This document shows positions 2,507 to 5,778 of a DNA stretch of 64,000 nt, piece by piece. The stretch is from NCBI GenBank assembly GCA_002011125.2, contig MTMF02000009.1, forward strand, positions 272,332 to 336,331, read 5' to 3'. The DNA comes from Candidatus Hydrothermarchaeum profundi (GTDB lineage: Archaea; Hydrothermarchaeota; Hydrothermarchaeia; Hydrothermarchaeales; Hydrothermarchaeaceae). Every line of letters starts with the position of its first letter. Position 1 is the stretch's first letter. Position numbers and translations under genes: made by a program. The notes under the pieces are model-generated. The model was not told where the DNA came from. It did no database searches and worked only from the letters and a program-made list of their open reading frames with translations.

Positions 2507-2556
2507 ACGCTTAAATAAGAAATATCGCTTGATAAAAAACACTTAAGTAAAATTAG

Positions 2557-2715
2557 TGCGGATTCGGACGCAGCCGAAAGGTTTGGCACCGTTTGGTCCG
2601 AAGACCTTGGGTGCTTTGCCTTTCAGACAGGTGATACCTCCGGAGAGGCATTCCTGTCGCTCGTAGCGGTTTATCCGAAGACGAACCGCTGCGAATCACT
2701 ACACCCGAATCCGCA
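2557..2715 (+). ncRNA. Candidate structured RNA, four-way junction of about 159 nt (family unknown)
   Basis: A G+C-rich stretch in AT-rich intergenic DNA. A perfect 11-bp closing stem (2557-2567 with 2705-2715, ends TGCGGATTCGG/CCGAATCCGCA) encloses three hairpins. Hairpin 1 (about 2575-2625) has GAAAGG/CCTTTC, GCAC/GTGC and GGTC/GACC helices capped by a CGAA tetraloop. Hairpin 2 (about 2626-2659) has GACAGG/CCTGTC and CCTC/GAGG helices capped by CGGA. Hairpin 3 (about 2664-2692) has AGCGGTT/AACCGCT. A TATA-like box (cttaaata, 2510-2517) lies upstream and a T-rich run follows 2715. I see neither the conserved RNase P RNA blocks nor the SRP S-domain GGAAG/GAGCA elements. Strand is chosen from the upstream box and is not certain. 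Confidence 0.6.
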
Positions 2716-2804
2716 AATAGTTGTTGAATTTTATTAGTATATATTTATTGTTATTTGTAAACCTTTACTTCCTCTGAAGCATGTGGAAAAAATGGTAAGA
2801 GATT

Positions 2805-3887
2805 TTATATCCAGTCCTTAGATTCTAATTTCTGAGGCAAATACACATCTGTCATAAACGTTATTCCATGCTTGGCTAGTGCCTGGAGTTCCGCCTTTTC
2901 TCCTCTGCTTATCATGAGCTGAAGCTCTTTTCTCCATTTCTTGTTATTTTTTATCCAAGGATACTCCAGCATTTTCTGGGCTTTTTTCAAATCCCATTCA
3001 GTCATCTTCAGACGGGCTGCCTTAGGAACATTAAATTTGTCTAGGTCACTTGGGAGTAGACCCAAAAGCTTTGCACTAGGTACGGCGAGATATGCGCTTT
3101 CAAAACTTAGTGAGATGCTTCCTCTCTTATAACTTGAACATATTTGCATGCCATAGCTATCGCTGTCTGTTAGAACATAAACGGGGAGCTTTTCCTCTTT
3201 ATTTAATCTCCTTATAAGCCTCCTAGTAGCAATGTCAGGCTGTCCTTTTCCGGTGATTAAGAGACATTTATTTTTTTTATGGAAATCTTCTTCTATTAAT
3301 CGTATTAGTGCGGCATCTTTTTCCACTACTAAAATGTAATCCGCTCCGCAGTCTATGATTTCTACTTCATCTATAAATGGGCTTATTGACCAGCCGCCTC
3401 TACCAAGACTGTTACAGTTGAATGTATCGTTTCCTTCTCTTAAGGTGAGATCCCCTATGCATACGCCCTTAGCCGAGGCAACTACTCTTAGGCAGGGACG
3501 GGTGACTCCGAGCGTCACTGCGATATCTTCTATTATATTGTCACTAGTTTTTTGGTCCTTATTGAAGAGCTCTGGATCTTGGTAATAAATCTCGCGTTTA
3601 GTCAGATGTTTTTCTCTTTCAGCGCTTTCATAAAGTATGCTCATTACATAAAGCATTTGAGTAAATGCTGTCACTGTTCCGGTATTATGGAAGCTCCTCT
3701 GAGACATGCTTTCTCCAATATAAATCAAATCCTTTTTTTCATCGTAAATAAAATTGTCCGCCCCTCGGGTGGGAACATTAAAAGCCGGGTTTTTTCTGCT
3801 TCTTATGTCTCTTGCTATTCCTTTTGCTACTCGCTTTAGCTCCCTTACAAGCTCGCGTGCATCCATTTTTTCTTTTATTTTTTTCAT
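2805..3887 (-). CDS. top6A: DNA topoisomerase VI subunit A (Spo11-like)
   Basis: A 360-residue catalytic subunit of the type IIB topoisomerase, which makes two-base-staggered double-strand breaks and relaxes or decatenates DNA with subunit B. The 5Y-CAP domain carries the nucleophilic tyrosine in KREIYYQDP (Tyr101 or Tyr102). The Toprim domain shows the acidic residue in ILVVEKDAA near residue 185 and the DSDSYG metal-binding pair near 241-246. RSRKNPAFNVPTRG is also typical. The length is normal for the family. It starts one nucleotide after the top6B stop, so the two are translated from one message headed by a small RHH gene. Confidence 0.96.
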   Translation of the reverse strand: MKKIKEKMDARELVRELKRVAKGIARDIRSRKNPAFNVPTRGADNFIYDEKKDLIYIGESMSQRSFHNTGTVTAFTQMLYVMSILYESAEREKHLTKREIYYQDPELFNKDQKTSDNIIEDIAVTLGVTRPCLRVVASAKGVCIGDLTLREGNDTFNCNSLGRGGWSISPFIDEVEIIDCGADYILVVEKDAALIRLIEEDFHKKNKCLLITGKGQPDIATRRLIRRLNKEEKLPVYVLTDSDSYGMQICSSYKRGSISLSFESAYLAVPSAKLLGLLPSDLDKFNVPKAARLKMTEWDLKKAQKMLEYPWIKNNKKWRKELQLMISRGEKAELQALAKHGITFMTDVYLPQKLESKDWI

Positions 3888-3888
3888 T

Positions 3889-5778
3889 TTAACCCCCCGT
3901 TAAAGTCGCTTGCACAGCTATTGGCCTTCTCCTGCGGATTTCTTGAACCAGTGGCTTATAGATTCTCTCTTTCTTCTCACCGGTCATTTTAGATATCGAT
4001 TCCGATACTATCTCAGCATGCTTTTCTAGGAATTCCCTCGCTTTCCCTGAAAGTCTGTGTTTCTCCATCATGCTAACATGTTTCCTAAGCTTTCTACTAG
4101 CCGCCTGTAATGCCCTTTTTATTTCCTCAGCTATAACATCATCCGCCCCAATCGCCTGTTTAGCTACTCCTAGATACTTGAGCTGTGGTGATGTAACATG
4201 AACTACGAAGATAACAGGAGCGCTTGGAAGTGATCCTTTTTTTCCTAGCTTATAGAGAGACCAGTCAATTTCTCTCGCTGTTTGAGTGATGATATCGCTT
4301 CCAAACTCATATATAAGGGGAGTGCAATTAGCAATTCTTATTAATTTATCTTGGTCTCTAAGATCCGGAGAAATCTCCCCCCCATACATACCGAGAACCT
4401 GAACCTGAACTGGTCTTCCACTAGTGCTGGTCGGCTTCCTTTCCACATAAACATGTTTCTCCGGGTTATAAATCGAGACAAAGCCTCTTATTAAGGTTTT
4501 TTTAGGTATGGGCATAAGAGAATCCATTGGTGGCGAAGGAAAAGACATTGACCTCAGAGTTTCAGCGACTAGCCTAACTTTTTTTTCATCGTTTAATATC
4601 ATGTTTACAGTAGTTTTTTCTGTAAAAATCTGCTTCGGTAAAGGTTGACCATCAAGCTTGAATAACTTCTTCAGTTCATTATTGTCGAGAGACCTAATGT
4701 TATTGCTAAGTTTACCGCTTATGTAGAGTTTCGCTGCATAATCGCGATCAATATCTACGTCCCTAACCAGAGTTTTTAGATAAGCACTAATCTTTTCAGG
4801 ACTCTTTTTAAGTTCTTTAACCTTCTCACTTTGAGCTATTCTCTTGACAATGTCTCCTGCAAAGAAATTCTGTTGATCAAAATATTGAAGTATCGTAGCT
4901 CTCTCTATAAGCTCTTTTATTTTCTTATCGCCGATCCGGCAAAAGTTCTTTTTAAGAAATCCTGCTAAAGAAATACTTCTTATCCTAGACTGATATGCTA
5001 GCAGATCCTTTAATTGACCTATGTCTACCGAGTTAGGATGTGGAGGAACGGGAGCAGGTATCGGTATTCCCTCGCTTGTTCTTTTTTCATATTTAGTTAT
5101 GTTTCCATTTTCTTTTAAGATAAAAGTTATATAAGGATGGATTGCCGCCATTCTCCTAATAAACTCTATAATATTACCCCGAGCTCGGGAGTAATCCCCT
5201 AAGAGAGTTAGAGAGACTCTAGTTCCATGCTCTGGAAATTCGCCTTCATAGGGCTCTTCAACTACCTTGGTTACTTTGCCCTTACCATAGTCGTAAACAT
5301 GGCGATGGGCTATTTTTTCTGTAAAAGTTTTACTTATAATTTCCATAGGCTTACCGGTGCTTTGGCTTGCATATATAGCGGCAGCTTTCCATCCTATACC
5401 CTGCTGAGACCTACTAGCTTTATATTCGATTGTACCTGTGCCACCTGCTCGAACAATGATTTGAACCTTATTTTTCGGTATTCCTATTCCATTGTCCTGA
5501 ATACTGATTTGCAGTTCTCCCCGAGATTTATCAACTACTGAAACGCTTACCATAATTTCAGCATTATAATCGTCATTCCCAGTTGACCTCAATAATACCT
5601 CTCTAGCCTTATCAATAGCGTCTGCTGCATTTTGAACCCCCTCAACGACTGTTTGAAACGGTGCCCTAGCCTTTTGCCCGAAACCTGTATCAACTCTTTT
5701 TAAAAGTTCTTCAGCGGATTGAAGCCGGATATGGTTATGGATCTGCTCTTCTGCTTTTTTCCTTGAAATTTTTTTCAT
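3889..5778 (-). CDS. top6B: DNA topoisomerase VI subunit B (GHKL ATPase)
   Basis: A 629-residue ATP-operated clamp subunit of topoisomerase VI. Bergerat-fold motifs are visible: the N box EGVQNAADA (residues 46-54), the G1 box DNGIGIP near 97, the G2 loop QQGIGWKAAA near 124, and HGTRVSLTL near 183. A helix-two-turn-helix region and the transducer domain (GFVSIYNPEKHVYVERK and following) occupy the rest. ATG 5778 overlaps the stop of the upstream small RHH gene as ATGA, which fixes the start and implies translational coupling. Together with top6A it supplies the main chromosome decatenase of archaea that lack gyrase. Confidence 0.96.
   Translation of the reverse strand: MKKISRKKAEEQIHNHIRLQSAEELLKRVDTGFGQKARAPFQTVVEGVQNAADAIDKAREVLLRSTGNDDYNAEIMVSVSVVDKSRGELQISIQDNGIGIPKNKVQIIVRAGGTGTIEYKASRSQQGIGWKAAAIYASQSTGKPMEIISKTFTEKIAHRHVYDYGKGKVTKVVEEPYEGEFPEHGTRVSLTLLGDYSRARGNIIEFIRRMAAIHPYITFILKENGNITKYEKRTSEGIPIPAPVPPHPNSVDIGQLKDLLAYQSRIRSISLAGFLKKNFCRIGDKKIKELIERATILQYFDQQNFFAGDIVKRIAQSEKVKELKKSPEKISAYLKTLVRDVDIDRDYAAKLYISGKLSNNIRSLDNNELKKLFKLDGQPLPKQIFTEKTTVNMILNDEKKVRLVAETLRSMSFPSPPMDSLMPIPKKTLIRGFVSIYNPEKHVYVERKPTSTSGRPVQVQVLGMYGGEISPDLRDQDKLIRIANCTPLIYEFGSDIITQTAREIDWSLYKLGKKGSLPSAPVIFVVHVTSPQLKYLGVAKQAIGADDVIAEEIKRALQAASRKLRKHVSMMEKHRLSGKAREFLEKHAEIVSESISKMTGEKKERIYKPLVQEIRRRRPIAVQATLTGG

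Follow-up and report, generated by a model that had tools for sequence, protein, structure and literature searches.

The window, i.e., the whole 64-kb stretch of DNA analysed, contains a 159-nt non-coding region (2557–2715) located just 3′ of the gene for topoisomerase VI subunit A, on the same strand as this gene and convergent with bioY. No credible ORF was found in it, the only frame being one of 48 aa on the minus strand that starts with GTG, and its G+C content of 57% compares with 24–25% in the flanks, which agrees with the preliminary description of an ORF-free element in AT-rich surroundings. The exact 11-bp closing stem and the three hairpins reported there were also confirmed: the termini carry an exact 11-bp inverted repeat, TGCGGATTCGG/CCGAATCCGCA, with the hairpins inside. 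The minus-strand fold reached −86 kcal/mol (z = −8.7 vs. dinucleotide-preserving shuffles, n = 200). Either strand gave z of about −8.7, with 0 of 200 such shuffles being equally stable, and no other 159-nt stretch was as stable when the 64-kb window was scanned coarsely in 20-nt steps. The features of the locus, in the direction of the proposed transcription, are listed below.

2768–2788, minus strand: upstream promoter element TTCCACATGCTTCAGAGGAAG, with GGAAG at −57
2738–2747, minus strand: TATA box TAAATATATA, its centre approximately 27–28 bases 5′ of the RNA start
2557–2715, minus strand: structured non-coding RNA with a four-way junction, 159 nt, 5′ base at about 2715 and 3′ base at about 2557, assigned from fold energy, homologues, and compensatory changes
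2698–2715, minus strand: P1 closing stem, 5′ strand, 18 bp with 2557–2574
2659–2697, minus strand: P2 arm with a CUUCGG loop; the arm base is absent from the g12 genomes
2626–2658, minus strand: P3 arm with a CUCCGG loop; relatives have mostly CUUCGG or a 3-nt loop
2575–2625, minus strand: P4 arm with a CUUCGG loop and two internal loops, CAAA/CAAA and CAA/AAAC
2557–2574, minus strand: P1 closing stem, 3′ strand, partner of 2698–2715
2549–2552, minus strand: first T-run 3′ of the RNA, probable terminator; the sequence directly after the RNA is T-rich in all copies
2534–2539, minus strand: second T-run (T6), possible terminator

The RNA gene lies on the minus strand, opposite to the first proposal. 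On this strand, G–U pairs lengthen the P1 closing stem from 11 to 18 bp. The plus-strand reading was ruled out by three lines of evidence: the minus-type strand gave the better fold in all 13 homologues described below; 100 G–U cells were counted in these homologues vs. 18 A–C cells, which would be the G–U pairs of the opposite strand; and the TATA box and the T-runs are positioned correctly for minus-strand transcription. The four-way-junction RNA initially described was thus a real fold assigned to the wrong strand, and the tetraloops CGAA and CGGA have to be replaced by the arm loops UUCG, UCCG, and UUCG of the minus-strand RNA. The reading as an independent transcript stands, with the upstream TATA-like box and the downstream T-run both valid only as minus-strand signals.

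No base is left unpaired at the four-way junction of the minus-strand RNA. The junction-proximal U–G pair of P4 was kept in 10 of the 13 copies, and most of them have an A-rich internal loop 5–7 bp beyond this pair. The longest unpaired run was 4 nt in 11 of the 13 copies.

Relatives of the RNA were searched for with covariance models. The model built from the single sequence of the window (R1) retrieved four full-length matches, each from a different genome of the order, with E values from 6e-9 to 4e-14. The model based on the resulting five sequences (R2) found ten copies in nine genomes, and the model based on ten sequences (R3) found 13 copies. These were spread over 12 genomes, all of one order, among the 23 searched for the phylum Hydrothermarchaeota. 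Pairwise identity among the 13 copies ranged from 34% to 97%. In a plain DNA similarity search, only the window's own copy was clearly significant among the relatives, because the sequence diverges too fast for this approach; the same kind of search of phages and plasmids gave nothing. Each genome carried one copy with the exception of G010, in which two copies (L065:2402–2555 and L068:4477–4636), 71% identical and flanked by different gene neighbours, may represent a pair of paralogues.

No copy was detected in the 371 archaeal genomes outside the phylum (394 genomes, including the 23 of the phylum, were searched with strict filters), nor in another set of 393 archaeal genomes that overlapped largely with the first, and permissive filters applied to 38 outgroup archaea yielded zero matches at E ≤ 1. 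At the sensitivity of the searches used, the family appears to be confined to one order. Within this order, four near-complete genomes (G002, G009, G011, and G015) had no copy detectable with model R3, so the RNA either is non-essential across the order or has diverged past the reach of the model or been replaced there.

The preliminary description had raised the possibility of a new archaeal RNA family and named homologues without compensating changes in the stems as evidence against it; the homologues in 12 genomes showed massive compensatory change instead. In the alignment of the 13 sequences (A6), standard pairs occupied 90.1% of the cells and double changes were found at 54 of the 62 pairs, in 186 cells. 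In the shuffle control (n = 500), the mean was 35.5 doubly changed pairs and 64 cells, with 0 of 500 shuffles attaining the observed values, and sliding the structure along the alignment gave 9–24 doubly changed pairs and 21–36 cells. Alignment A6 leans towards the structure because it was fitted to the model. RNAalifold, run on A6 by itself, predicted 51 pairs, of which 43 showed double changes, and the individual minimum-energy folds recovered most or all consensus pairs in 12 of the 13 sequences. The only invariant pairs were the terminal G–C, C–G, and G–C of P1 (model positions 2–4, 13/13) and two hairpin-closing C–G pairs, and almost no conserved single-stranded sequence was seen across the 13 copies. 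Altogether, these comparisons support the existence of the family well, and the covariation brings its secondary structure close to being settled ahead of experiment.

The putative promoter recurs with the RNA. A TATA-like box was found at −27 to −30 in the 12 other copies by a simple score, whereas that of the window copy was placed by eye. Farther upstream, GGAA occupied one 2-nt slot (−56/−57) in 9 of the 13 copies, and in five of nine when a single g12 genome was retained; each of these counts was reached by 0 of 5000 shuffles. TTCC half-sites were present upstream in 10 of the 13 copies. The TTCC..GGAAG arrangement was also considered as a generic promoter motif and rejected: it was found seven times in the window vs. 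10.9 expected, and this lack of enrichment indicates that it is not shared by all genes. In the TTCC...GGAAG element at 2768–2788 (minus strand) and upstream of the 12 other copies, the TTCC-to-GGAA spacings were approximately 7, 16, and 25 bases. These 9-base steps suggest that a transcription factor binds paired half-sites.

A strong match to a known Rfam family had been named beforehand as the result that would speak against novelty, and none turned up. Among the 4227 covariance models of Rfam 15, only those for two tRNAs matched the whole window at gathering thresholds. At E ≤ 10, the locus gave a single chance match of 13.4 bits (gathering threshold 47), on the other strand, and the scanned loci, comprising most other copies, gave nothing over the RNA at E ≤ 1. 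The earlier exclusion of RNase P and SRP RNA was borne out, as neither archaeal RNase P RNA (RF00373) nor archaeal SRP RNA (RF01857) matched the locus at E ≤ 10. Both are likewise stand-alone structured RNAs of the same genome, the SRP RNA also with closed ends, but they are encoded at different loci (C9:1404584–1404874, 242 bits, and C9:1184100–1184415, 245 bits, respectively).

The closest likeness in the manner of discovery is to SscA and HgcC, the best-known of the archaeal ncRNAs described from G+C-rich islands in A+T-rich genomes (Klein et al. 2002, as cited in PMC4247193 and PMC3124441). They are similarly structured and G+C-rich and were found via composition and fold, but no Rfam model of either matched the locus or the scanned copies. 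SscA is located in the EF1-alpha 5′ UTR and has a P1/P2 stem structure, in contrast to the four-way junction and own promoter of the new RNA; HgcC has several copies, some within transposase genes, whereas the new RNA is usually single-copy. The family delineated with model R3 is characterized by a full-length four-way junction, its own TATA promoter, and a T-rich 3′ flank, all of which the window RNA possesses. No description of the family emerged from a small search of the literature. It is thus a new RNA family, carried by 12 genomes that all belong to a single, little-studied order of archaea and matched by no known family.

The family, strand, fold, promoter, and lineage demonstrated above led us to consider what the RNA may do. 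We think that it is probably an independently transcribed, trans-acting structural RNA, likely a protein-binding scaffold or decoy, where transcription and its exact ends, like the action in trans and the binding of a protein, are inferred. Minus-strand transcription would start at about 2715 from the TATA-box promoter with its upstream activator-like element and end in the T-rich stretch past 2557. The transcript would fold into a sealed four-way junction with near-zero free single strand and act in trans as a rigid scaffold or decoy within a ribonucleoprotein, and it would not work through base-pairing with targets. The protein might read the shape and a few sites, i.e., the invariant GCG/CGC pairs at the terminus, the junction itself, and, in P4, the A-rich internal loop. 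No protein partner of the RNA was found. More tentatively, an abundant lineage-specific RNA of this kind could be the core of a so far unrecognised ribonucleoprotein machine in Hydrothermarchaeota, with a dedicated snRNA-like promoter (an upstream element at a fixed distance from the TATA box) and recognition of the perfect-junction shape. Whatever its role, a well-supported RNA family is added to an archaeal phylum known chiefly from metagenomes, and the covariance model renders its presence, expression, and partner testable. The RNA offers a clean test case for recognition by shape, since its fold persists despite the replacement of almost every nucleotide and leaves hardly any free single strand.

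One specific form of the scaffold or decoy explanation would be a counterpart of 6S RNA whose nucleic-acid-like shape captures RNA polymerase or a transcription factor. Bacterial 6S RNA likewise keeps its structure rather than its sequence, and the strongly kept fold with little sequence conservation, the single-copy gene, and the strong-looking promoter would suit such a decoy. We regard this form as unlikely: a four-way junction replaces the long hairpin with a central bubble typical of 6S RNA, the domain of life differs, and no Rfam match was obtained, so the likeness is an analogy of working mode only. A regulatory or guide RNA acting by base-pairing (antisense sRNA, box C/D, or H/ACA) would follow the common mode of archaeal small RNAs, many of which work in this way. 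Archaeal examples are given in PMC3432209 and PMC3510493. This is still less likely for the family described here. The C box RUGAUGA, sought together with the D box CUGA, occurred in 0 of 13 copies. An H/ACA RNA would be expected to have an unpaired guide pocket and an ACA box located 3 nt from its 3′ end, but ANA was found within the last 8 nt in 0 of 13 copies. The near absence of single strands longer than 4 nt, together with loops capped as stable UNCG or 3-nt loops, makes base-pairing roles unlikely, and the single-stranded sequence is barely conserved. The least probable alternative is that of a self-cleaving ribozyme or the RNA of a mobile element or retroelement. Four-way junctions are known from the natural hairpin and twister-sister ribozymes, and the inverted-repeat ends could resemble a small transposon, but no Rfam ribozyme matched, the internal-loop sequence varies, unlike ribozyme cores, and a gene with its own promoter, present once per genome (twice in G010) and showing no within-genome spread, does not behave like a mobile element.

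The position of the RNA directly 3′ of the gene for topoisomerase VI subunit A, on its strand and pointing at bioY, would also fit a cis-acting element, either a 3′ UTR or terminator of the topoisomerase VI mRNA or an antisense regulator of bioY. We consider this very improbable in the light of the neighbourhoods of the other copies. Synteny with topoisomerase VI was rejected, as the topoisomerase VI loci of the relatives carry no copy. A general association with bioY failed likewise: biotin ligase/bioY neighbours were found in the window genome (G000), G004, and G008 and not elsewhere. The copies adjoin genes for ATP-grasp and JAB proteins in G006, the arginase family in G001, and ArgZ/LOR-SDH and a methyltransferase in five g12 genomes, and copies beside unrelated genes in other lineages retain their own TATA box and T-run. 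As the neighbours vary by lineage, bioY and topoisomerase VI are incidental. By inspection, the 3′ neighbour was convergent in 11 of the 13 copies, so the RNA is no leader there. Even with the filters off, no copy was seen at the ArgZ/LOR-SDH locus in G002, G009, or G019.

Two further observations concern the genes around these loci. None of the ten f2 genomes of this order, several of which exceed 95% completeness, yielded topoisomerase VI subunit A (2805–5778, minus strand, in the window), although most of the other families of the order have it. A gene for a JAB/JAMM-domain protein lies upstream of the RNA in G006 (L061) and upstream of the second copy in G010 (L068), an arrangement common to two genera.
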